DNA of 21,707 nt, from positions 1 through 21,707 of IMG/VR virus record IMGVR_UViG_3300032293_001469; one strand, 5' to 3'. Shown in pieces: positions 147-21,339 of the stretch; the first letter of the stretch is position 1, and each line of letters begins with the position of its first letter. Made by a program: the position numbers and the translations under genes. The stretch comes from a virus. The notes beneath the pieces were generated by a model. It searched no databases. It was not told the DNA's origin and saw only the letters and a program-made list of their open reading frames with translations.

Positions 147-187
147 GATTGCGTCGGAATTGCGCGAAACGCAATCAGGACGCAATC
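147..187. repeat. Three copies of the octamer ACGCAATC around the SSB stop codon
   Basis: ACGCAATC occurs directly at 169-176 and 180-187 (11-bp period) and inverted at 147-154. A smaller hairpin (159-175, ATTGCG/CGCAAT arms) sits between them. The last copy overlaps the SSB stop codon. The cluster is immediately upstream of the palindrome and promoter that serve the next gene, so it could hold binding sites for a regulator. This role is inferred only from position. Confidence 0.45.
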
Positions 188-623
188 AGAACGGAATCGG
201 GTCGGAGTCGTCCGGACCCGGAGGAGGAGCCGCCGGAGCGGGTCGCGTCACCGGGACCGCTCCCATCCAGACCGCCGCGCCGAGGTCTCGCGACTGGTCC
301 TCCGCTTTCCGCGTGTCGAGGAAGGTGACCCGGTCCGCGATGACCTCCCAGACCTTCTTCGCCGCGCCCTGCTTGTCCTGGTATTCCCGCGACTGGAGAC
401 GCCCCTCGACGTAGATTAGCGCGCCCTTGCGGACGTACTTGTCGACGAGCTCCGCCGTCTTCCCGAAGACGCTGACCTGATGCCACTCGGTCCGCTCCTC
501 GTCTTTGACCTTCTCCGAGGTCGCGAGGCTGAAGCCACAGACCGCCGTCTGGGTCGAGGTGTACCGGGTTTCCGGGTCGCGACCGACGCGCCCGATGAGC
601 TGGATTCGATTCAATGACGCCAT
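186..623 (-). CDS. ssb: Single-stranded DNA binding protein (SSB)
   Basis: A 145-residue protein with the bacterial SSB layout. Residues 1 to about 103 form the OB fold, with the typical N-terminus MASLNRIQLIGRVGRDPETR, the EWHQVSVFGKTAELVDKYVRKG stretch split by the usual strand turns, and the YVEGRL strand. A Pro/Ala-rich linker follows, and the acidic tip ends DSDPIPF, matching the partner-binding tail (consensus DDDIPF). SSB coats single-stranded DNA in replication and recombination and recruits partners through this tip. The start at 621-623 has GGAGG 8 bases upstream, embedded in the last codons of the preceding gene, 3 bases away. SSB is the last gene of the operon that also encodes RecT, so the two probably act on the same DNA. 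Identification is very secure. Confidence 0.96.
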   Translation of the reverse strand: MASLNRIQLIGRVGRDPETRYTSTQTAVCGFSLATSEKVKDEERTEWHQVSVFGKTAELVDKYVRKGALIYVEGRLQSREYQDKQGAAKKVWEVIADRVTFLDTRKAEDQSRDLGAAVWMGAVPVTRPAPAAPPPGPDDSDPIPF

Positions 624-2228: not shown

Positions 2229-3086
2229 TCATTCCTCCCCGCCGTAACTGACCGTCTTCGCCATCGCCTCGTCCCGCGCCGCCGCCCATCCCGCGAGATG
2301 CGCCGCGCCCTTAGGGGTCCCGAGGTATCGGAGCGCCGCCTCGACGCGGGTCAGGTCAGCGGTCCCGAGGTCCACTCCGTCGCGAGCGAGGAGCTCCTCG
2401 ACGAACTGGGGAGCGTCAAACTCGAGGGTCATCATCTGCTCGATGAGCCGCCGACGCTTAGCCTGAGAGGTCTCCGCCGCCGGGACGATCTCGACGACGT
2501 CGACCGCGACCGCCTCCGCCTTGACCTCGACGACCTGAGCCTCGACGACGGGACGGACCGTCTCGACCTGGGTACGAGGCGCATCGAGCGGAGCCGCGAG
2601 CTCGTCGGGGTCATAGATGCCCGCGACGAGGTCCGGGTAGACGATGCGGGCCAGAGCGGACGCGCATCGAGCGCGGAGCATCGCCTCGGGATAGGAGCGC
2701 CATCCCTGACCGCCGACGAGCCCGGCCCGCGTCGCCTGCTCGATGGTCCATGTGAGGACCGTCGGCTCCGTGTCGCCTTTGCGCCGCGTCGTGTAGGTCG
2801 CCCGCTCCCGGGTCGTCTCGACGCATCGCCACTCGACGCACTCCCCAGACCGACGGACGAGCGCGACCGTCGCGTCCGCCGAGAGGGTCACCTTCCCCTT
2901 GATAACCGATAGCATCCGGAGCGATTGCATGGGCGCGAAACCCAGCTCGCGACCTGCCATGAGCACAATCAGCGCGTCCTGCGGGCGATTCCGGAGCGCA
3001 TCCGGAGCGAGCGCGGACGAGGCCGCGACGACCGCGGTCGCGCCGAGAGCGTCCGCCTGGAGAATGATGTCCGTAGTGTTCGCCAT
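2229..3086 (-). CDS. recT: RecT-family single-strand annealing recombinase
   Basis: A 285-residue protein. The start at 3084-3086 has GGAGG 5 bases upstream, and the N-terminus is MANTTDIILQADALGATAVV. Residues about 30-180 carry the RecT pattern: ALIVLMAGRELGFAPMQSLR, then VIKGKVTLSADATVALVRRS, a Trp-containing EWRC strand, GWRSYPEAMLRARCASALAR and the close YPDLVAGIYDPDEL. Known RecT proteins pair complementary single strands after exonuclease resection. The last 100 residues form a Val/Glu-rich linker and a small helical domain. No RecE-like or lambda Exo-like exonuclease is visible in the window. The SSB encoded downstream is a natural partner. The gene is preceded by a GGGG-loop hairpin leader. 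Confidence 0.9.
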   Translation of the reverse strand: MANTTDIILQADALGATAVVAASSALAPDALRNRPQDALIVLMAGRELGFAPMQSLRMLSVIKGKVTLSADATVALVRRSGECVEWRCVETTRERATYTTRRKGDTEPTVLTWTIEQATRAGLVGGQGWRSYPEAMLRARCASALARIVYPDLVAGIYDPDELAAPLDAPRTQVETVRPVVEAQVVEVKAEAVAVDVVEIVPAAETSQAKRRRLIEQMMTLEFDAPQFVEELLARDGVDLGTADLTRVEAALRYLGTPKGAAHLAGWAAARDEAMAKTVSYGGEE

Positions 3087-3099
3087 ATGTCCTCCGTGA

Positions 3100-3119
3100 G
3101 ACCCGCTCCCCAGCGGGTC
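3100..3119 (-). promoter_or_regulatory. Leader hairpin of recT, copy 1 (8-bp stem, GGGG loop)
   Basis: On the minus strand GACCCGCT and AGCGGGTC pair around GGGG, followed by TCACGGAGGACATATG, which contains the recT ribosome binding site and start codon. The copy at 3377-3394 is the same except that one C:G pair is missing from both sides of the stem. That paired change indicates the fold itself is conserved. There is no following T tract, so it is not a standard terminator. Confidence 0.75.
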
Positions 3120-3126
3120 GAGATTG

Positions 3127-3363
3127 TCAGTAGGCCGCGAGAGCGTCGCCGCAGTCGACCCGGCCCTCTTTCCACGCCGCGAGGAGCATCGAGCGGAGCT
3201 CCTCCCCGTCGGTCCACTCATCATCTTGGTCGATGATGATGGAGGCCTCCGCGCCCTGGTAGCGGACGAGGACGTGAGCGACCGAGGGCTGATAGGACTC
3301 GAGCCACTCCGCGCACTGAGCGACCGTCCCCGAGAAGCGACCCTTGCAAGTATCGATGACCAT
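3127..3363 (-). CDS. Small hypothetical protein, 78 residues
   Basis: I do not recognise the family. The sequence looks like a compact mixed alpha/beta domain: an N-terminal strand (MVIDTCKGRFSG), a helix (TVAQCAEWLESYQ), strands AHVLVRYQGAEASIIIDQ, an acidic turn and a C-terminal helix. It has three cysteines. The ATG at 3361-3363 has GGAGG upstream in the same leader that precedes recT. The gene is second in the operon that starts at the promoter near 3710, immediately before recT. Sharing the recT leader suggests the two are expressed to similar levels; its role is unknown. Confidence 0.75.
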   Translation of the reverse strand: MVIDTCKGRFSGTVAQCAEWLESYQPSVAHVLVRYQGAEASIIIDQDDEWTDGEELRSMLLAAWKEGRVDCGDALAAY

Positions 3364-8488: not shown

Positions 8489-9766
8489 TTAGGGCTCCTC
8501 CGCAATCGTCACGGAGACGTCCGAGCTCCGGACCCGCGCGCCGTCGAGCCCGAACGTCGAGGTCGACCCGGAGGACGCCGCAACCCGCCCGACGATGCGC
8601 CCCTTTAGATGCTGGGTCGTGTAGGCCGTCGTGAACTCGGCGACCGTCGAGCCCGTGTAGAGTTGCTCGACGTGTCGATGTCGCCGAGGGTCGCCGATGT
8701 CGAGCCAGAGCGTGAGCGGCTGACCGCGTCCGGAGTTAGGCCAGAAGGCGCGGACCGCTTGTCCTTCCTGGTCGAGTTGGGAGGTCGGTCCGCGGAGCGT
8801 ATAGGTTACATCGTGAAGGGTCGACGCGCCGATGTGTCGACCCCGCGCCCGACCGTCCGCGAGGGTCACGGCTCCATCGATGCTCTCGGTCGAGACCTGG
8901 TAGCGGGACATCCCGCGGTAGAGGACGAGGACCGCGGGACATGGATAGGTCGCCGTGAGGATGGAGCGACCGAGGACCGTCGAGACCGACTCGGACCCCG
9001 TGAAGCCGAGGAGCCGACGGAAGGCGAGGCCCGCGTCCGTCGCGAGCCACGTCACCGCGGGGACGCCCGACGGGTAGGAGGTCCAGACCTTCCCCGCGTC
9101 GTCGACGCCCCAGCGGACCCGGAAGTCGGGCGAGTCCGTGTAGAAGTTGTCGAGGCGCTCGAGGGAGGAGACCGGACCGAGGCCGTCCTCCGAGTCCGTC
9201 GAGGCGCGGAGCGCCGTCGGGATAGACTGGACCCGCGCCGTCGTCGTCGAGAGCACACACGCCGTCACGCCGTCCGTTAGCGTGACAGCATTCGGGGAGA
9301 CGTAGAGGTCCAGATTCCCCCTCCGCCACGGCTCCGGAGCCGTTACCTGTTGGAAGGCCCCGACCGTCGACGACGACGTCGAGCCCGTCGAGAAGCCCCA
9401 CGCATTCCCCGAGGAAGCCGCGAGGTCGAAAGAGGCGAGGTCGACCGTCGGGACGCGGACCGCGACGCGGTCGTCTTCGGTCAGGATGACCTCCCACGAA
9501 TCGCCCGCGGAGCCGCCCGCCGTGACCCAGCTCGAGCGGAGCTCTTCCGTCATCGACCGCCCCGACTGGGAGCCGTACCCACTGAGGAATCCGAGGACGT
9601 CCGGGAAGCGACCGCCCGAGAAGGTCGACGCCGACGGGGTCATGATGACGCCCGTCCCGCCGCGCTCGAAAAGCGTCTCGCCGAGGAGCTCCGCGACGTC
9701 GACGCCCCGGAGGAGCGCGGGATACTTCTTCGCCTGAGGTTGTGAGCCGAGGACGAGGGAACCCAT
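8489..9766 (-). CDS. Distal-tail-region protein, 425 residues
   Basis: This gene follows the tape measure gene, where siphovirus genomes usually place the distal tail protein. It starts at ATG 9764-9766, sharing a base with the tape measure stop (TAATG), and has no separate ribosome binding site, so reinitiation is likely. The protein is beta-rich and rich in Ser, Thr and Gly. Near residues 330-360 the stretch VRAFWPNSGRGQPLTLWLDI is followed by paired strands resembling the ring-forming half of distal tail proteins, but I cannot confirm the family. It is longer than a minimal distal tail protein (about 250 residues), so an extra domain is likely. Confidence 0.7.
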   Translation of the reverse strand: MGSLVLGSQPQAKKYPALLRGVDVAELLGETLFERGGTGVIMTPSASTFSGGRFPDVLGFLSGYGSQSGRSMTEELRSSWVTAGGSAGDSWEVILTEDDRVAVRVPTVDLASFDLAASSGNAWGFSTGSTSSSTVGAFQQVTAPEPWRRGNLDLYVSPNAVTLTDGVTACVLSTTTARVQSIPTALRASTDSEDGLGPVSSLERLDNFYTDSPDFRVRWGVDDAGKVWTSYPSGVPAVTWLATDAGLAFRRLLGFTGSESVSTVLGRSILTATYPCPAVLVLYRGMSRYQVSTESIDGAVTLADGRARGRHIGASTLHDVTYTLRGPTSQLDQEGQAVRAFWPNSGRGQPLTLWLDIGDPRRHRHVEQLYTGSTVAEFTTAYTTQHLKGRIVGRVAASSGSTSTFGLDGARVRSSDVSVTIAEEP

Positions 9767-11619
9767 TACGCGACCGCCAGTCTAGAAGACGCGAGGGACC
9801 CGGACCGGGACTCCCGCTGGGATTGCCGGACAAGGACATCGGAGACTTGCTCGACCCCGAGGACGACCGTCACATTCATCGACGGGCTCGACTGACCCGG
9901 AGCGGAGTAACTCGCGGTCCGGTCTCCGCCTCCCCCCGCGCCCGCTGACCCGCCGCCGCTCGGAGCGTCCGTCCGACCCGCGCCGAGAGCGCGAGCCGTG
10001 AGACCCAGCGTGACACCGACCGCCGCCATAGCCGCCGACGCCGCGCCGAGGGTCGCCGGATTCCACCACGGACCGAGGAGGCCCGGGCTGAATGCGGACG
10101 CAATAGCCGCCGCGCCGAGGAACACGCTGTAAGAGAGCGACTGAGACGCGAGCGAGGCCGCGACCTCTCCCGCGACCTTCTTAAAGCTCTGGCCAAACTT
10201 CCCGCCCGTGATGATGAGATTTGCGAGCGCCTGACCGACCGCGTCCGCAAATCCCTTGACCGCCGAGACGCCGACGCTCTGGAGGTCGAGCGCGCTCTGA
10301 GTTACCGCCGAGAAGTTGGCTTTCAGCGCCGCGCCCTGTTGCTCGAGCTGTATCGCGAGCGAGGCCGCCGCGTCCCCATCGAGCGCCGCCTGGAGACGTC
10401 GAGCGCGCCCGGCTTCCTCTTCTTGCCTGACCGCCTCCGCGCTCTCGACCATGCCCCCGACCATACCGACGCCCGACGCCGCCGCCGCTCCGACCGCGTC
10501 GAGACCGGGGATGTATCCCGCGACCGTCTGACCCGCCGCCGCGAGAGACGCCGCGAGCGCCGCTCGGTCATTCGCCGCGTTGATGTCCGCAATCGCCGCC
10601 GCCGCCTCTTTCCCCAGCTCGCGGAGCCTGAGGAGCTGTGCCTCGTCCTCTTTGCGTCGGCGCTCCGCCGCGGCTTCCTCTTCGGCTTCCTGCTTTCGAC
10701 GTTGCTCCGCCGCTCGACGGTAGGCCTCCGCCGCTTGCTCCCGCGCTTTCGCTTGCTCCTCGATGCGCTTCTGAGCCGCCGCCGCATTCGCCGCCGCCGC
10801 CTTAGTCGCCGCCTCCTCCGCGCGGGTCTGGAGACCGAGGCTCTTTCGGACGCGGTCGTCCTGAGCCTCCGCCTCTTTCGCCGCGGTCCGCCGGAGGTCC
10901 AACAGCTCCGCGTATCGGAGGAGCGCCGCCGCCGCCGCCTCGTCCGCCGCGCGCGCCGACTTGAAAAGCCGAGTCGTTTCCGCGACGTCCTCGCGTCGAC
11001 CCTTAGCCCGGAGCTCGTCCGCCTTCTTTCGCGCCTCCTCCGCCTCCTTCTCTTTCGCGAGCTGGAGACCGAGCGCCTGGAGCGCCTCGTCGTTTAGCTT
11101 CTGGAGGCGGTCACTCTGCTGTTTATTGAGCGTCGCTCCGACGTCCGCGAGGATGCGCTCCGCGTCCGAGAGCTCCGCCGGGGTCTGGCCTATCTGCGAA
11201 TAGAAGGCCTCGACGTCCGAGGTCGACGCCTTAGCCGCGTCGCCGATTTTGCGGAGCTCCGCCGTTATCTGCTCCGACGACTTCGCGAAGACGCCCGCCG
11301 CCTTGCCCGATTCGTAGAGGGCCTTCCCCATCTCGACGAGCTGGCTAACGACCTGCCCCAGCGGACCCGCGAGACCGACGCCGAGAGCGACCGACGCGAG
11401 GTCGACCGCTCCGGAGAAGGTCCGCATGGGCTTCTCGACCTTGTCGACCGCATCGTCGAGAGACTTCGTGGCCCGCTCAAACTGCGAGAAGAGCCCGCCC
11501 GCCTTGCCCGCGGATTCCCCGGTATCCTTAGCCGCTTTCGCGACCTTGCGGAGCTTCTCTTCGCTTTCCGCGGCCCCAGTGACCTCGACGTCTACTCCGA
11601 TTTTCCCGTCCGAGACCAT
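9766..11619 (-). CDS. Tail tape measure protein, 617 residues
   Basis: This protein sets tail length and is expelled through the tube during DNA injection. The evidence is the long helical, Ala/Lys/Glu-rich body, strongest at residues 215-345 with heptad-like stretches such as RRAAEQRRKQEAEEEAAAE. The N-terminus is typical (KIGVDVEVTGAAESEEKLRK). Hydrophobic segments lie around residues 70-95 and 485-545. The tail assembly chaperone frameshift gene lies directly upstream. Tape measure length usually scales at about 1.5 angstrom per residue, which gives a tail near 90 nm, short for a siphovirus. The ATG at 11617-11619 has GGAGG close upstream and lies just after the stop of the chaperone extension. 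Confidence 0.92.
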   Translation of the reverse strand: MVSDGKIGVDVEVTGAAESEEKLRKVAKAAKDTGESAGKAGGLFSQFERATKSLDDAVDKVEKPMRTFSGAVDLASVALGVGLAGPLGQVVSQLVEMGKALYESGKAAGVFAKSSEQITAELRKIGDAAKASTSDVEAFYSQIGQTPAELSDAERILADVGATLNKQQSDRLQKLNDEALQALGLQLAKEKEAEEARKKADELRAKGRREDVAETTRLFKSARAADEAAAAALLRYAELLDLRRTAAKEAEAQDDRVRKSLGLQTRAEEAATKAAAANAAAAQKRIEEQAKAREQAAEAYRRAAEQRRKQEAEEEAAAERRRKEDEAQLLRLRELGKEAAAAIADINAANDRAALAASLAAAGQTVAGYIPGLDAVGAAAASGVGMVGGMVESAEAVRQEEEAGRARRLQAALDGDAAASLAIQLEQQGAALKANFSAVTQSALDLQSVGVSAVKGFADAVGQALANLIITGGKFGQSFKKVAGEVAASLASQSLSYSVFLGAAAIASAFSPGLLGPWWNPATLGAASAAMAAVGVTLGLTARALGAGRTDAPSGGGSAGAGGGGDRTASYSAPGQSSPSMNVTVVLGVEQVSDVLVRQSQRESRSGSLASSRLAVA

Positions 11620-11620
11620 G

Positions 11621-11986
11621 TCACCTCCGCGCGCTGGACCGCGTGACCTCGTATCCCTCGACGACCCGGAGCTCGCGAGCGAGCGTTAGGACGCCATCGA
11701 GGACGACCGCCGCCGGGGATGGTACCACATCCTCCGCGCTCTGGCCCCTCCCGGTCCATTCGTAGACGTCGAGGACGACCCCGACCCATCGAGCGTCGAC
11801 CTCGCAGAGAGGACACGCCGCGAGGCCTTCGTGAGTCTCGCTCTCGAGCGCCATCGTGAGCGGTCCCGGCTCATGGGGGAGACCGTCACGCTCAGCACAT
11901 CGAGCGCATCCCTCGACGTGAAGTCGGACCCCGTGTCTCTGCGCCGCGCCTCGCCACGCGATAGACCTCAGGGCGAGGGCTTGGAT
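11621..11986 (-). CDS. Tail assembly chaperone, T-like extension made by -1 frameshift
   Basis: This is the -1 frame continuation of the gene at 11968-12414. It adds 121 residues to the first 143 of the upstream frame, giving a fusion of about 264 residues, close to lambda gpGT. The frame has no ATG, GTG or TTG between its upstream stop and residue 45 of the extension. The only ATG, at 11854, would cut off the first cysteine pair. Residues 27-30 (CARC) and 58-61 (CPLC) form two CxxC pairs that look like one zinc-binding unit, which argues for translation well upstream of 11854. In lambda the G and GT products coat the tape measure protein before tube assembly. A CTG overlapping the upstream stop (CTGA) is an alternative but less likely start. 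Confidence 0.85.
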   Translation of the reverse strand: MQALALRSIAWRGAAQRHGVRLHVEGCARCAERDGLPHEPGPLTMALESETHEGLAACPLCEVDARWVGVVLDVYEWTGRGQSAEDVVPSPAAVVLDGVLTLARELRVVEGYEVTRSSARR

Positions 11987-11992
11987 TTTCCC
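11949..11992 (-). promoter_or_regulatory. -1 ribosomal frameshift signal (slippery site plus stem-loop)
   Basis: The heptamer GGGAAAA (complement at 11986-11992) is in the right phase, read as ..G GGA AAA in the upstream frame. Lambda G/T uses GGGAAAG. After a 7-base spacer comes a perfect 7-bp GC-rich stem, CCTCGCC with GGCGAGG (11972-11978 with 11949-11955), closing a 16-base loop that contains the upstream frame's stop codon. Slippage by one base leads into the open frame ending at 11621. Confidence 0.9.
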
Positions 11993-12414
11993 AGCGTGCT
12001 CACCCTCGCCACATGGTCGACGACCTCGGAGACGAGCGAGATGACCGCCGCTCCCTCGAGCCTGTCATAGAGTCGAGCGACCGGGTAGCCCGACGCCCCG
12101 CGGACGAGGTCCGGGAAGTCGGAGATGTTCTCGATGACGTCCGCCGCTATCGCCTCGAGGCGAGCGAGGCCCCGAGAGATGTCGTCTCCCTCGGGCTCCC
12201 GCGCCGCCCTTAGGTCATGGAGAGCGACCGAGCGCTTACTGAGCGCCCGGGCCTCGACCCATGTCGCATTGTCCGGGACGACGAGGGCTCCGATGTCCCG
12301 GGTCTCCGCATAGACACGACACGCCTCCTCATCGTTCGCCGACTGAATCGCCGGGTCGCAGAGGAGGACGAATCGCGTCGGAATGGCCGCCGACACGACT
12401 ACGGTAAGAGCCAC
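11968..12414 (-). CDS. Tail assembly chaperone, G-like product
   Basis: A 148-residue protein directly upstream of the tape measure region, matching the size and place of lambda gpG (140 residues). It starts with GTG (12412-12414), preceded by AAAGG about 8 bases upstream. The fold looks helical after a short N-terminal strand region; the second half (about residues 75-140) is strongly helical and acidic. Most ribosomes would stop at 11968-11970; a minority should shift at 11986-11992 to make the longer chaperone. Family assignment rests on position, size and the complete frameshift signal, not on recognisable sequence similarity. Confidence 0.85.
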   Translation of the reverse strand: MALTVVVSAAIPTRFVLLCDPAIQSANDEEACRVYAETRDIGALVVPDNATWVEARALSKRSVALHDLRAAREPEGDDISRGLARLEAIAADVIENISDFPDLVRGASGYPVARLYDRLEGAAVISLVSEVVDHVARVSTLGKSKPSP

Positions 12415-12425
12415 GGTCTAACCTT

Positions 12426-13718
12426 TCAGGAACAGAACGCGAGGAGGAAGTAAGCCCCATTCGCCGCGGTCGGGGTCCCGCTGGTCCCGACGAACTCACT
12501 CGAGGCCGCGGAGAGAGTGCACGTCGAGTATGACCGCTCGTCCTCGACCGTGTCGCCCGGGAGCTCCGAGACATACGCCGACGGGATGATGAGCGCCGCG
12601 CCCGCGAGCTCCCCGCCCTCGAGCGGGAGAACCCATGTATAGGTCGAGCCGAGCCGGAGCCAGTCGCGGAGCGTCGCCCTCGCGAAGTCCGAGAACGTGA
12701 GCGAGACCGTACACTGAGCGGAGACGACCTCCGCATCCGCCGCCCCGACGATGCTCGTCGTCGCGGAGCCGACCGGGTCGAGACCGATTGCGATGGTCGC
12801 CTCCCAGCCGCGGAGGGTCGCGACCGTCCGAGCGCCCGTGGTGATGTCGCCATAGACAGCCTGTCCCCAGCGCTTGAGCGCCGTCCCGTTCCCGATGTTG
12901 CTCGGAGCCGCGAGCGCGCCGCCGTAGGCCTGGGTCGTCTTGTAGGCGGGCGAGAGTTGAACCGAGATTTCAGCCGTCCGCGAGTCGTCACCTGCAAACG
13001 CGATGCCGACCTGATTCGCGCGACAGCCCGTCGCCTCGACCTCCCGAGCGCGGTCGCGATACCGGACCGCGAGGGACGTCGCCCCGACCGCCCCAATCTC
13101 CGGATAGACGACCGAGCATAGCTTGACGAGGTCGCCGACCTGGGGAGCCGCGGAAAAAGCCGGTCGGACCGTGACCTGATTCGTCCCGCCATTGATAGCC
13201 GTGACGACGCCGTACTCCGTGAGCCGCGCCGCGCTGACCCACGCGACCACGTCGCCCGGATTCGTCAGACTGAGGTCGCCCGCGCTGACCTCGAACACGG
13301 TCGTCGAGACCGCCGCCGTAACCGTGACAGCGCTCCCGCCGTTCTTGCTTACCGTCCCGAGGGAGGTCGCGAGGAGCTCCTTCAGTCGGGTCGACCCGAA
13401 GTTGAGACCCTGAGCGCTCTCGCCCTTGAAGACGAGCGTGAAGTCCCCGAGCTCCCGGATAGCGGGCTCGCCGCTGGAGAGATACGGAGCCTCGACCTCC
13501 GGGACCTGACCCGCGCCGCTCGTCGAGACCGAGGGCTCCGAATAGAGAGGGATGGTCGCCGACTCCGCCGCGCTCGACGAGCTCGTCCGCGTCGGCTTGA
13601 TGGCGTTGTACGTCAGAGAGCTCGTGTCGACGAGCGCATGGTCCGTCGCGCTCGGGCTCCCGTAGGTCGATTCGATGGCGATGGCGACACTCTGTCCGCC
13701 GAGACGTCCCGCGCTCAT
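12426..13718 (-). CDS. Major tail tube protein, 430 residues
   Basis: This protein is expected to polymerise into the tail tube. It is beta-rich, starts with a short N-terminus followed by AIAIESTYGSPS, and contains typical tail-tube features such as a strand with FTLVFKGESAQG. Residues about 130-200 look like an inserted beta domain (AVTVTAAVSTTVFEVSAGDL through QVTVRPAF). This would explain why it is longer than lambda gpV (246 residues). Position between the tail terminator candidate and the chaperone genes is the classic place for this protein. The ATG at 13716-13718 overlaps the preceding stop as ATGA and has AAGGAG 6 bases upstream, a strong site for a highly expressed protein. Confidence 0.85.
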   Translation of the reverse strand: MSAGRLGGQSVAIAIESTYGSPSATDHALVDTSSLTYNAIKPTRTSSSSAAESATIPLYSEPSVSTSGAGQVPEVEAPYLSSGEPAIRELGDFTLVFKGESAQGLNFGSTRLKELLATSLGTVSKNGGSAVTVTAAVSTTVFEVSAGDLSLTNPGDVVAWVSAARLTEYGVVTAINGGTNQVTVRPAFSAAPQVGDLVKLCSVVYPEIGAVGATSLAVRYRDRAREVEATGCRANQVGIAFAGDDSRTAEISVQLSPAYKTTQAYGGALAAPSNIGNGTALKRWGQAVYGDITTGARTVATLRGWEATIAIGLDPVGSATTSIVGAADAEVVSAQCTVSLTFSDFARATLRDWLRLGSTYTWVLPLEGGELAGAALIIPSAYVSELPGDTVEDERSYSTCTLSAASSEFVGTSGTPTAANGAYFLLAFCS

Positions 13719-16650: not shown

Positions 16651-16917
16651 TCAGCCCTTCCGCTTACGCGCTGGGATGGTCCGCGGAGTAGAGGGAGGGA
16701 CGTCGACCGGAGCCACGTCCGAGGGTCCGCCCGCGTCGAGAATGGAGGCGATGACCGCCTCGACCTCCGGGGGAGCCTGATAGTCGAGGAGGACCGCGTC
16801 CGTCCCGAGTAGCCGCGAGGCCGCGAGCCACTGCTCCCGCGTCATGTCGACCTCTGCGGGAGCATTGTAGAACCCGAACCGAGGGAGAGGACGGAGGAGA
16901 CGGACGCGGGCTCCCAT
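16651..16917 (-). CDS. Small head-region protein, 88 residues
   Basis: I do not recognise it. The N-terminus is basic with Gly/Phe-rich strands (RVRLLRPLPRFGFYNAPAEV), followed by a helix (MTREQWLAASRLLG), an acidic helix and a Pro-rich tail ending PARKRKG. The ATG at 16915-16917 shares a base with the stop of the major capsid gene (TAATG), so it is probably made by reinitiation. Small genes of this size after the capsid gene often encode head-completion or connector parts, but nothing here proves that. Confidence 0.72.
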   Translation of the reverse strand: MGARVRLLRPLPRFGFYNAPAEVDMTREQWLAASRLLGTDAVLLDYQAPPEVEAVIASILDAGGPSDVAPVDVPPSTPRTIPARKRKG

Positions 16918-17987
16918 TAGGCGACGACCGCCGTCACGAGGTAGCCGAGCTGCGCGTCGCAGACGACCTCGTCCGAGTAGACCTCAGCCGCGACGATGGA
17001 GCCGACCGCCTGGGGAGGAGCCGTCTCATAGGAGCGGACCGAAATCGGGAGGGCGATTCCGTCCATGCTCACGCCCTGACCGGAGAGGCCGTCCTCGACG
17101 AGGAGGAGAGCCGCGACCGCGCGCGTCATGATGTCGCCCGACGCATTCGCGACCGAGTCCGCACCCTCGAGGCAACCCATCCAGAGGCTCTTACCCCAGA
17201 TGTAGGAGCTCGCGAAGGCGACGCCGTCCGCCGAGGTCTGCTTCCGACCGCCGCCGATGAGGAGGTTCAGCCCCAGCTCCGCGCGGACGAGCTCGACGAG
17301 GAATGCATCGCTCGCGACCTGACGAGCCGCGGGAGCCGCGCCCGCGCCGCCCGCCGACGCGACGAAACGAATGCCCGAGGCCGCGAGGCTCCGAGCCATC
17401 GCGTCCGCGACCTCGCGACCCATGATGACCGTATCAGCGTCCCGCCCGTAGGCCTGAGCGCGGAGGATGGTCTTCAAAATGTGCAGGTCCTGAACCGGGG
17501 TCGCCGTGACCGTCGTCGACCACTGCGAGCCCGCGCCCGGGACCGCGCCGAGAGCCGCGTCGGGCCAGTTGGACGCCGAGAAAAAGAGGTCCGCCGTCCG
17601 GCTCTCCATGTCGAGAGCGAGCTTCCGACCGATAGCGCCCGCCTCACGTTCCGTGAGGTCCGTCGGGAACTGGCTCCGCTGCGAGAGCTTCGTCGGGATG
17701 ACGTCGCTCGCGAGCTTGTACTCCTCGCAGTTGTAGTTGACGCTGGTCGGACCGCCGAGAGCGCGCCGCGGATAGTCCGCGCCGAGAGCCGTCGCGACGA
17801 CCTGGGGCGAGCCCATGTAGCCCGACGAGGCCTCGACGAAGATGGTCCCGCGATGAGCGGTCGGGACGACCTGCTGAATGGGGAGCTTGGGGAAGACCAG
17901 ACCCGCCACGCTCTGCGCCGCGCCGATGGCTGCGCCGGAGAGGATGGGGGAGACTGGAGCGAGCTGGGAGATGTTGGCCGCGCTCAT
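16917..17987 (-). CDS. Major capsid protein, 356 residues
   Basis: This is expected to be the main shell protein (HK97-like fold). Support comes from its position after the decoration protein and protease/scaffold genes, its typical length, and sequence features: a helical N-terminus, the strand region around VNYNCEEYKLASDVIPTKLS (residues 83-102), a long helix REAGAIGRKLALDMESRTAD resembling the spine helix, and an alanine-rich C-terminal domain. The ATG at 17985-17987 has AAAGG about 8 bases upstream. The protease upstream might remove an N-terminal piece, but I cannot place a cut site. Confidence 0.85.
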   Translation of the reverse strand: MSAANISQLAPVSPILSGAAIGAAQSVAGLVFPKLPIQQVVPTAHRGTIFVEASSGYMGSPQVVATALGADYPRRALGGPTSVNYNCEEYKLASDVIPTKLSQRSQFPTDLTEREAGAIGRKLALDMESRTADLFFSASNWPDAALGAVPGAGSQWSTTVTATPVQDLHILKTILRAQAYGRDADTVIMGREVADAMARSLAASGIRFVASAGGAGAAPAARQVASDAFLVELVRAELGLNLLIGGGRKQTSADGVAFASSYIWGKSLWMGCLEGADSVANASGDIMTRAVAALLLVEDGLSGQGVSMDGIALPISVRSYETAPPQAVGSIVAAEVYSDEVVCDAQLGYLVTAVVA

Positions 17988-17998
17988 GGTTCAGCCTT

Positions 17999-18394
17999 TC
18001 AGGGGAAGATGGAGTGGTGGATGTTGATTTCGGCGGTCGCGCCGTCGGCGGTCGCGCCCGTCGAGGTCGAGCCGCTGAGGACGACGCCGAGGATACGGTC
18101 GCCCGACGCCGCCGCGACGAGCTTGCCGTCCGCGTCCGCCGTGACGAACTTGCCCGGGTCGATAGCGCCGCTCGCGATGGCGAAGGGACACACGCCGAGG
18201 AGCTGGACGTCGACGATGTCACCCGCGACGCCGCTCGAGAGAGCCACGCCGAGAAGATACTCGCCCGCGCCCGTCGCCTGAGCCGCCGCCGCGATGCCGC
18301 CGCTCAGCCCGTCCGCCTTGACCACGCGACCGCGCGTCACGGTCCCCGTGAGGCGGTACGACTTGATCGACTGGAGACCATTCACGCTTGCCAT
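17999..18394 (-). CDS. Capsid decoration protein, DUF2190-like, 131 residues
   Basis: A compact, almost all-beta, Gly/Ala-rich protein with repeated short strands: GRVVKADGLSGGIAAAAQAT, EYLLGVALSSGVAGDIVDVQ and RILGVVLSGSTS. This pattern fits the DUF2190/cement-type head decoration proteins, which bind the outside of the shell and stabilise it. It has one cysteine. The ATG (18392-18394) is directly adjacent to the stop codon of the protease/scaffold gene. The family call is from pattern and position. Confidence 0.82.
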   Translation of the reverse strand: MASVNGLQSIKSYRLTGTVTRGRVVKADGLSGGIAAAAQATGAGEYLLGVALSSGVAGDIVDVQLLGVCPFAIASGAIDPGKFVTADADGKLVAAASGDRILGVVLSGSTSTGATADGATAEINIHHSIFP

Positions 18395-18796
18395 TTACGC
18401 CCCCTGCTTGATGCCGCGGAATCGCGACAGCATGTCATTAGCGCGGGCCACCTCAGCCGCGCGCGGATCCTGCTTGACCTGCTCGACGTCCGCCGCCGCG
18501 CCGCCGTGACCGACCGGGCTCGCGACCGCCACGATAGGCGAGAGGTCCGAGAGCATCGCCCCGACCTCCTCGACCCCGAGGCGGACCGCCCGCTCGACCC
18601 ACTCACCGCGCCGCGCCTGGGGAATGCGCCCCGCCGAGACGTGAGCCTCGACCATGCGCTCCGCGTCGCGCTTCTGGAGCTCCGCGGTCGCGCTCTGCGC
18701 CGCGGTCGCCGCCGCCTCGAGCTGAGCGCGCATCGCGTCCAGCTCCTTCGTGAGCGCCTCGACCTGAGCGTCGAGCGCCTTCGTTCCCTCGCTCAT
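18395..18796 (-). CDS. Nested capsid scaffold protein (in-frame start inside protease gene)
   Basis: In frame with the protease gene, codon 376 is an ATG (18794-18796). It is preceded by CAGGAGGT (complement at 18804-18811), an almost complete match to the anti-Shine-Dalgarno sequence, with 8 bases between GGAGG and ATG. Such a strong site inside a gene is unlikely by chance. The product would be 133 residues: a coiled coil (LDAQVEALTKELDAMRAQLE, about residues 6-25 onward) and a helical basic C-terminus. This matches the lambda C/Nu3 arrangement, in which the protease C-terminus and the free scaffold share sequence. The scaffold guides shell assembly and is then removed. Confidence 0.82.
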   Translation of the reverse strand: MSEGTKALDAQVEALTKELDAMRAQLEAAATAAQSATAELQKRDAERMVEAHVSAGRIPQARRGEWVERAVRLGVEEVGAMLSDLSPIVAVASPVGHGGAAADVEQVKQDPRAAEVARANDMLSRFRGIKQGA

Positions 18797-19921
18797 GTCG
18801 AGGACCTCCTGAGACCCGTCCGAGGTAGACGCGGAGGCCGTGACGGTCCGGACACGCCGCGAGTAATCGAGAGGCATCGAGCCCCCGAGGAACATCCAGT
18901 CGTCGGACTCGGACGCGACACGGTCCGCGAGTCCGCGAGAGACCGCCTCCGCCGCGCCATAGACCGACCCATCGCCGAGAGCCTCGATGGTCGTCCCGCG
19001 GTCCGACGCGATTTCCGCGAGCATGACGCCCGCCATCTCGTCGACGCGCCGCTGGAGACCCGCGATGTAATCCGCATCATCGACCGATGCGCGCTTCTTC
19101 GGGGTCTGGGAGCTGACGACCTCGACCGTCTGACCCTGCTCCGCGTCGCGGTAGAGGGTCGTGATGACGCCGACGGACCCGACCTGAGCGAGCGGAGATA
19201 GGACGACCTCGTCCGCCGCCGCCGCGACCCAGAGCGCCGCCGACGCCGCCATCCCGGAGACGTAGGCGACGACGTAGATTCCCGCCTCTCGAGCGCGAGC
19301 AATCGCCCGCCGCGTCTCGCGGACTCCCGAGACGTAGCCGCCCGGGGAGTCGACATGGAGGACGACGGTCCGCTCCCCCTGGAGTTGAGCGCGTCGGAGC
19401 TCCATCCGCGCCGAGTAGTAGTCCAGAGGGTACAGAGGCCCCTCGACATGGACGACCGAGAGCGCGCCCTCGACCGTCCGCCGCGGAGCGCCCGCGAGGA
19501 GCGCGCCGACGTGACTCGGCTCGACTGCCATCGCGGAGACGCCGGGACTCACGCGAGCGCCCGCGCCGCCGCTCTCTTCTTGAGCCTTGCGGACGAGATA
19601 GAGCTGTTGGAGCCCCTCGACCCAGTCCTCGCCCGGGTCGCCGCCCCAGAGGAGCCACGCGACGAATCCGGGGGACTCGGAGCCGGGGACGTCGTCGACG
19701 CCCTCCTCCCAGTCGCTCTCATGGCGCGCGAACCACGCCGGAGCCTCGACCGTCGCCCACTCCTCCGACTGAGGCTCCCCGTCCGCGATGGAGTTAGCCC
19801 GACGGATGGTCTCCGGATTCGGGTCGCCGGAGCGTCCCGCCTGGTGTAGCTCGACGCCTCGACGCGCCGCGTCGCGGACCGCCTCGGGAGGTGTGAGCTC
19901 ATCTTGCGTGAGGAGAGGCAT
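18395..19921 (-). CDS. Prohead protease, S49 (SppA/lambda C) family, with C-terminal scaffold
   Basis: A 508-residue protein. Residues 11-107 form an N-terminal module seen in some phage proteins (VRDAARRGVELHQAG; SPGFVAWLLWGGDPGEDW). Residues about 150-340 form the S49 peptidase: VHVEGPL, LHVDSPGGYVSG (187-199), and GMAASAALW with the expected nucleophile Ser227. GSVGV follows at 248-252, and SQTPKKRAS holds candidate catalytic lysines 275 and 276. Residues 376-508 are the scaffold portion, also made separately. The enzyme is expected to cut scaffold and itself during head maturation. The ATG at 19919-19921 shares a base with the portal stop (TAATG). The extra N-terminal module is longer than in lambda C. 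Confidence 0.92.
   Translation of the reverse strand: MPLLTQDELTPPEAVRDAARRGVELHQAGRSGDPNPETIRRANSIADGEPQSEEWATVEAPAWFARHESDWEEGVDDVPGSESPGFVAWLLWGGDPGEDWVEGLQQLYLVRKAQEESGGAGARVSPGVSAMAVEPSHVGALLAGAPRRTVEGALSVVHVEGPLYPLDYYSARMELRRAQLQGERTVVLHVDSPGGYVSGVRETRRAIARAREAGIYVVAYVSGMAASAALWVAAAADEVVLSPLAQVGSVGVITTLYRDAEQGQTVEVVSSQTPKKRASVDDADYIAGLQRRVDEMAGVMLAEIASDRGTTIEALGDGSVYGAAEAVSRGLADRVASESDDWMFLGGSMPLDYSRRVRTVTASASTSDGSQEVLDMSEGTKALDAQVEALTKELDAMRAQLEAAATAAQSATAELQKRDAERMVEAHVSAGRIPQARRGEWVERAVRLGVEEVGAMLSDLSPIVAVASPVGHGGAAADVEQVKQDPRAAEVARANDMLSRFRGIKQGA
18804..18811 (-). promoter_or_regulatory. Strong internal ribosome binding site for the nested scaffold
   Basis: CAGGAGGT on the minus strand is placed 8 bases (from GGAGG) before the in-frame ATG at 18794-18796. 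It is one of the best ribosome binding sites in the window, although it lies in the middle of an open gene. Confidence 0.82.
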
Positions 19922-21339
19922 TAGACGCCCTCGGGGATGATGGAGGAGGGAGGAGAGAGCGGAGCGGGACGGAGCGTCCGACCGAGACGCTCACGCTCGG
20001 AACGGACCTCCGCCGCGCGCGTCGGAGCCGGGAGCTCGAGCGCCTGACGGATAGCGCGCTCGTCCTCCGCGCTCGGAGTGATGACGCCCGCGGAGAGGAG
20101 CTGGACGACGTCCCCGACCTTCTCGACCCAGAGGCTTGAGCGGATGCCGGAGTACGTCAGACGCGGGAGCTCATCGAGCGGAATCGGTCCGATGTTCGCG
20201 AGGACGATAGCCCGGAGATACCCCGCGAGCCCCTCGCTTACCCACTGACAGAGGTCGCCCGCCATTTGCGCCGCGAGCTCCGCATGGGTCTGCGCGGTCG
20301 CGTATGCGCCGGAGCTCGACGCGCTCCCGAGCGCGAGATGCTGAGCATAGAACGCTTGAAGGATTTCCCTTGAGAGCGCCTCGATGGTCGCGTTCAGTCC
20401 CTCGACCGAGCTCGGAGCGGAGAAGGTCAGCGTCGCCCACGATGGGAGGACGAGCGCGCTCTCCTCATGGGAGGTGTATCGACGGAGCGTCTCGAGGAGC
20501 TCGTCGCGAGCCGCTTCATATTCGGTCGTCGATGGCGCGGAGCCATTGACGCGAGCGAGGCGCTCTTCGTCGATGCTAATCGTCGGAGTCGGGACCGCGT
20601 AGCGCTGGGAGAGGACCTGTCGGAGCTGAGCCGCTCGACGGTAGTCCTGAGCGAGCGGCTCGACTTGCCGAAGAAGTCCGACGCCCTCGACGCCTTCCGA
20701 GAGCGAGGGCCAGACGAGATGGACGAGCCGCTCATAGGGGATGCGGACATCGCCGACGCTTGAGAGGCCGCCCGGCTCGCGGAGCCACTGGTCGACCGCG
20801 ACGAGACGCCGCCCCTCATAGACCCATCGCCGGATGCTCGACTGGTCGCGAGGTTCAAGGTCGATGTAGGTCGTCCCCTGGTAGGGATACGCGACCATCT
20901 CCGCGAGCGAGAAGCCGTAGAGAGCGCCGACGAGGAGCTGACGGAGCCGCGCCTCCCAGCTAGGGAGCGCGAGGACCCGACCATCCCACTCGATAACCGG
21001 AGCCGAGTAGCCGCCGAGACCGAGCGTCCGCCGGATGACCTCCGCCGCCGCTTCCGAGGCCGGAGAGTCCGGAGCCGGAGCGACATCCCATGTCGCTGAC
21101 GTCGCGAGTCCGAGGAGCGCCTGAGCGCCGACGGCACACGGAGCGCATCGCATCGCCTGACGATACGCCGCAATCCGCGGAGCGACCGCGACGAGACGCT
21201 GATTCGTCTCCCCGTCATTGACTGGGAGGGACTGAGTCCCGACGCCCTGACCGGGGACCGCCTCGGGAGCGGAGTAGCTCTGGACTCGGGTCGTAGTCGC
21301 CACGGGCCAGAGACTAGCACAGACCGTCAGAAGATGCAC
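19921..21339 (-). CDS. Portal protein, DUF935 / Mu gp29-like
   Basis: The portal forms the ring through which DNA is packaged and leaves the head. The 472-residue sequence fits the DUF935 type: LRQLLVGALYGFSLAEMVAY (about residues 135-154), a domain with IDLEPRDQSSIRRWVYEGR, VHLVWPSLSEGVEGVGLLRQ, a helix-rich core, and a C-terminal part with SSSGAYATAQTHAELAAQMA. Pairing with the Mu gpF-like protein supports this. The start is uncertain: GTG at 21337-21339 gives 472 residues, while GTG at 21301-21303 gives 460. Neither has a good ribosome binding site. The gene follows a 260-base gap with repeats, so it may be the first gene of a transcription unit. Confidence 0.86.
   Translation of the reverse strand: MHLLTVCASLWPVATTTRVQSYSAPEAVPGQGVGTQSLPVNDGETNQRLVAVAPRIAAYRQAMRCAPCAVGAQALLGLATSATWDVAPAPDSPASEAAAEVIRRTLGLGGYSAPVIEWDGRVLALPSWEARLRQLLVGALYGFSLAEMVAYPYQGTTYIDLEPRDQSSIRRWVYEGRRLVAVDQWLREPGGLSSVGDVRIPYERLVHLVWPSLSEGVEGVGLLRQVEPLAQDYRRAAQLRQVLSQRYAVPTPTISIDEERLARVNGSAPSTTEYEAARDELLETLRRYTSHEESALVLPSWATLTFSAPSSVEGLNATIEALSREILQAFYAQHLALGSASSSGAYATAQTHAELAAQMAGDLCQWVSEGLAGYLRAIVLANIGPIPLDELPRLTYSGIRSSLWVEKVGDVVQLLSAGVITPSAEDERAIRQALELPAPTRAAEVRSERERLGRTLRPAPLSPPSSIIPEGV

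Follow-up and report, generated by a model that had tools for sequence, protein, structure and literature searches.

G/GT frameshifting in phages is a textbook recoding event, and the locus described here raises the question of whether two reading frames of a virus known from metagenomic sequence are joined in this manner or represent two separate genes. The sequence analyzed, hereafter the window, comes from a metagenome and is a virus record of 21.7 kb and 68% GC; the locus lies on its minus strand, denoted (-). We conclude with high confidence that the G and T frames of the window are connected by a programmed -1 ribosomal frameshift of the phage G/GT (lambda) type, a reading based on the signal, its conservation, coding selection in the -1 frame, the gene order, and the chaperone-like fold of the G protein.

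Reading frames and gene order of the G/T locus

The zero-frame gene G, a putative tail assembly chaperone, occupies positions 11968..12414 (-) and encodes 148 amino acids, from a GTG start at 12414, which is backed by the alignment of relatives, to a TGA stop at 11968; 143 residues precede the slip site and five follow it. The slippery heptamer GGGAAAA is located at 11986..11992 (-), in the phase G GGA AAA as originally predicted, with five codons between it and the zero-frame TGA. The -1 frame, denoted T, covers 11621..11985 (-), comprises 121 codons and a stop (11623..11621), and is homologous in all relatives; its first codon after the slip borrows base 11986, and the GT fusion amounts to 143 + 121 = 264 amino acids. 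The prediction that the T frame is open for 121 codons with no ATG before codon 45 was borne out, the first ATG being that at 11854, where a 77-codon ORF (11621..11854, -) begins that a gene caller would report. Judging from the reading frames, G and T appear to be joined only via a -1 frameshift, T being without a start of its own.

Under this reading of the locus as a programmed frameshift, most ribosomes would translate G from GTG 12414 and terminate at 11968, yielding the 148-aa chaperone, whereas in a minority a one-base backward slip on G GGA AAA would carry translation into the -1 frame as far as 11623..11621, yielding the 264-aa GT protein. We infer that such slippage takes place, and likewise its efficiency and the binding roles of G and T considered below.

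In the window and its relatives, G/T is located between the gene in the major-tail-protein position and a tape-measure-like gene. The former, the upstream neighbor (12426..13718, -), encodes 430 amino acids and is conserved in relatives at 46-98% identity. The latter (9766..11619, -) encodes a coiled-coil-like protein of 617 amino acids with a weak SMC match, of which the ends are conserved and the middle is divergent in most relatives. The order of protease, capsid, head genes, tail protein, G/T, tape-measure-like gene, and downstream tail genes is kept across the relatives. The name “major tail protein” rests on gene order because no named family matched, and the tape-measure-like protein produced no match to curated tape-measure families; the names of both neighbors are accordingly based on order, size, and composition rather than on a curated family. 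A second GGGAAAA is present in the window clade at 11607..11601 (-), in codons 5-7 of the tape-measure-like gene; as a slip site of the same type it was rejected, its phase being GGG AAA A.

Among cultured phages, tblastn searches with the major capsid protein, the major tail protein, and the fusion yielded no match; the only similarity was a weak one, that of the portal to Erythrobacter phages. Two scans of genome contigs with the tail and capsid alignments, aimed at the host, found no relative. Elsewhere in the window, a single-strand DNA binding protein (186..623, -; PHROG 44, E 1e-48) and a RecT-like annealing protein (2229..3224, -; PHROG 561, E 1e-35) are encoded at one and the same end of the fragment. 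The head module (16917..21339, -) contains a Mu-type portal (PF06074) and an S49/Mu-I-like protease as well as two head proteins, one small and one major, the latter belonging to PHROG 1005; the unnamed tail module is next to it. Two types of major capsid protein are found among contigs that are closely similar in the tail and G/T genes: those of L023 (1775-2839) and L031 (1775-2839) are 66-67% identical to the capsid protein of the window, versus 47% for those of L022 (1769-2824) and L030 (1775-2830), which suggests exchange within the head module.

Conservation of the slippery site and coding in the -1 frame

The heptamer by itself is uninformative: about 2.1 in-phase A/T-type heptamers are expected from codon-shuffled genes and one was observed, GGGAAAA at 11992..11986, so that the heptamer count, being not above chance, was rejected as stand-alone evidence. 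The case rests on comparative evidence because the heptamer and the downstream stem are each unremarkable in a sequence of 68% GC. Two findings go beyond chance: the heptamer is conserved at one codon in all relatives spanning the site, and selection acts in the -1 frame ahead of the first ATG.

Relatives were gathered by scans with the 430-aa tail protein; all are metagenomic contigs, at about 97, 79, 70, and 46% identity in the major tail protein. Of the additional contigs, 22 extend as far as the site, and all of them have a slippery heptamer at the same place and in the same phase; two others stop short of it. Collapsing duplicates left 18 distinct sequences, every one of which carries the heptamer at the same codon and in the same phase, as GGGAAAA (11 sequences) or CCCAAAA (7 sequences) and in no other form. 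The original prediction had proposed examining conservation of GGGAAAA in related phages; the slippery form proved to be retained throughout, and a broken heptamer beside two intact frames, named there as a refuting observation, occurred in 0 of the 18.

On the tree of the major tail protein, GGG and CCC were exchanged at least twice, and L021, with CCC, is nested among GGG relatives with strong support. Each such switch comprises three adjacent substitutions and replaces Gly by Pro, or the reverse, in the zero-frame protein, with the slippery pattern retained. Given that the switch took place at least twice, the conserved entity is the X XXA AAA pattern and not the amino acids. The switch could have come about by local recombination, yet even then one slippery form was substituted for another. 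The exchange of GGGAAAA and CCCAAAA is clean natural evidence of selection on the slippery pattern itself. In addition, the Lys codon of the heptamer is AAA in every sequence, whereas the genes of the window prefer AAG over AAA by 80:17.

The annotation that a standard gene caller would probably produce corresponds to a rival reading, in which no frameshift occurs: G terminates at 11968, and ATG 11854 starts a protein of its own, 77 aa in length. This ATG does exist, and Met is found at its position in the window and in the L017 and L018 lineages, but not in the lineage of 46% identity, and no Shine-Dalgarno sequence was found in front of it (the next gene has GGAGG). The 43 codons separating the heptamer from the ATG are conserved, and in the -1 frame they evolve under purifying selection, dN/dS being 0.00-0.27 across all pairs compared, including low values for very close pairs (0.04 for the window and L008, 0.04 for the window and L009). 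Differences are concentrated at the third codon position of this frame (2, 1, and 15 at the three positions between the window and L009); when the bases are read in the zero or +1 frame instead, every computable ratio exceeds 1. The segment left untranslated by an independent 77-aa gene is therefore protein-coding. Two independent genes would also separate the two conserved cysteine pairs, one of which precedes the ATG and the other follows it, and would leave the conservation of the heptamer unexplained. ATG 11854 of the 77-codon ORF most likely does not mark the start of an independent gene, and we consider the two-gene reading highly improbable. The expectation that a split gene call would lose 44 residues including a CxxC pair was correct, and reading the locus as a frameshift corrects the annotation by restoring these residues, one of the two conserved cysteine pairs among them.

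The remaining alternatives concern how the break between the frames arises. One is synthesis of the T extension through RNA polymerase slippage or some other recoding, instead of tandem tRNA slippage on GGGAAAA; translational and transcriptional slippage are indistinguishable from sequence by itself. The heptamer, however, contains a run of only four A, which is short for polymerase slippage, and the conserved element is exactly X XXY YYZ, switching between GGG and CCC, as predicted by tandem tRNA slippage; we regard this alternative as very unlikely. An assembly error or a decayed gene might be suspected in a 21.7-kb metagenomic virus record, but the same two-frame layout recurs in 22 further contigs from several lineages and many samples, and both halves are under purifying selection, so that the relatives already refute this explanation and we assign it a negligible probability. 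The preferred reading remains the programmed frameshift.

In relatives outside the clade of the window, the zero frame runs 42-48 codons beyond the heptamer, and a substitution analysis of these relatives found no zero-frame constraint on the extension. The early stop within the hairpin loop (see below) is peculiar to the clade of the window, because elsewhere the zero frame runs on.

Hairpins around the slip site

Downstream of the heptamer, a 7-nt spacer (11985..11979) is followed by a hairpin (11949..11978, -) that is a possible stimulator of slippage, with arms at 11978..11972 and 11955..11949 forming a perfect 7-bp stem (CCTCGCC/GGCGAGG) and a 16-nt loop that includes the zero-frame TGA (11970..11968). 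All of these elements were found as described in the original prediction, which had taken them for a complete signal. The stem, however, is ordinary for a GC-rich sequence: about 2.0% of minus-strand positions precede an equally good stem, and the folding energy of the downstream 50-mer places it only within the most stable quarter of the 50-mers of the window. Furthermore, the stem is absent in the L011/L021 lineage. The hairpin alone was accordingly rejected as evidence, being neither above chance nor universal, and it is not needed for the frameshift argument.

The 3' arm GGCGAGG is retained in the window, L017/L018, and 46% lineages, whereas the 5' arm occupies different alignment columns in different lineages. 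In the 46% lineage, the pairing 5' arm is found at a shifted position, and the stem is present in most members, the L025-type losing the outer pair. The 3' arm encodes a conserved Trp-Arg-Gly, and protein constraint may explain part of its conservation; the Arg codon is CGA in all cases (all 29 between-lineage pairs, where 8.2 were expected). Stimulatory RNA structures downstream of X XXY YYZ sites are common but not obligatory, and a stimulatory role of this hairpin is plausible.

An alternative hairpin (11972..12010, -), specific to the clade of the window, can be formed by pairing of GGCGAGGG (12010..12003) with CCCTCGCC (11979..11972) and would hold the heptamer in its loop. RNA folding of the region from -30 to +60 in the window sequence favors this pairing over the downstream stem, and the two structures are mutually exclusive, the CCCTCGCC strand being shared with the downstream 5' arm; the upstream arm GGCGAGGG is absent in L017 and others. 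The downstream hairpin (GGCGAGG at 11955..11949) might form only after the ribosome opens the upstream GGCGAGGG/CCCTCGCC hairpin (12010..12003 for the former strand). In the clade of the window, the slip site is flanked by a motif present in three related copies (12010..11949, -).

The G and T proteins and comparison with known systems

Searches of G against Pfam, PHROG, and NCBIfam gave no match, and those of the GT fusion against Pfam and PHROG gave no meaningful one; two members of the fusion alignment matched Pfam DUF5794 (best E 0.00085), weak zinc-finger matches also occurred, and overall these family searches yielded nothing useful. A profile search of the fusion against the gpG/gpGT families, proposed with the original prediction, detected no sequence match to gpG/gpT; the hhalign probability for similarity to lambda gpG or gpT was 0.2% for both halves. 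PDB profile searches with G and T produced chance-level matches only.

The AlphaFold model of G (pLDDT 81.5) matched 3KLU (YqbN) with a Z score of 5.8, an rmsd of 4.5 over 102 residues, and 10% identity, a modest Z score but the only PDB match with Z ≥ 2. Several matches of the model in BFVD are named tail assembly chaperone, none of them below an E value of 0.001. YqbN (3KLU) and HK97 gp13 are phage tail assembly chaperones (PMC9603447), and the G model points, with moderate strength, to a fold of this type. For T, the model is of low confidence (pLDDT 68.8), and its structure search returned nothing convincing: the matches were weak and partial, with Z no higher than 3.1.

The T part contains two cysteine pairs, CxxC at residues 170-173, encoded before ATG 11854, and CPxC at residues 201-204, encoded after it. 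In the alignment, Cys170 and Cys201 do not vary, whereas the last position is His in one lineage. These pairs may resemble a zinc ribbon; in a literature search on zinc in G/GT chaperones, none of the 7 papers retrieved was pertinent by title. The combined proposal that, in the clade of the window, the slip rate is tuned by the two exclusive hairpins and that T is a metal-binding version of gpT (CxxC...CPxC/H) is speculative, and we consider it improbable. To our knowledge, a metal-binding type of gpT is not recognized in lambda.

The locus extends the G/GT frameshift to a metagenome-only phage group without a named family for G or T. Its G/GT membership is based on layout, signal, and fold; sequence homology to lambda was tested and not detected, either in G or in T. 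By analogy with lambda and Lactococcus phage TP901-1, the tape measure protein would be coated by G, both on its own and within GT, the T part would recruit the tail tube protein, and the G:GT ratio would be set by the rate of slippage. In lambda, the order is likewise tail tube, G, T, and tape measure, with the -1 extension joined to G by a slip. The original prediction had drawn attention to a nearly identical lambda heptamer at the same place in the gene order, and the same tools applied to lambda recovered GGGAAAG in the same phase as GGGAAAA of the window, with five zero-frame codons after the heptamer in both phages. Lambda T is without cysteine, in contrast to the conserved Cys pairs of T in the window. 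As for the YqbN (3KLU)/HK97 gp13 type, G differs in that its identity to 3KLU is 10% and no family is matched by sequence.

TP901-1 shows the same gpG/gpGT layout, with the slip site GGGAAAG (PMC4493119). In this phage, no tails are made once the slip site is lost, and forced fusion results in non-infectious particles, the mutants showing the importance of slippage as well as of the ratio (PMC4493119). G/GT frameshifting is widely conserved across long-tailed phages despite low sequence similarity, and G_GGA_AAG and C_CCA_AAG are highly shift-prone in E. coli (PMC5009743); the first triplets of these sites, GGG and CCC, are the same two types that are found in the window and its relatives.
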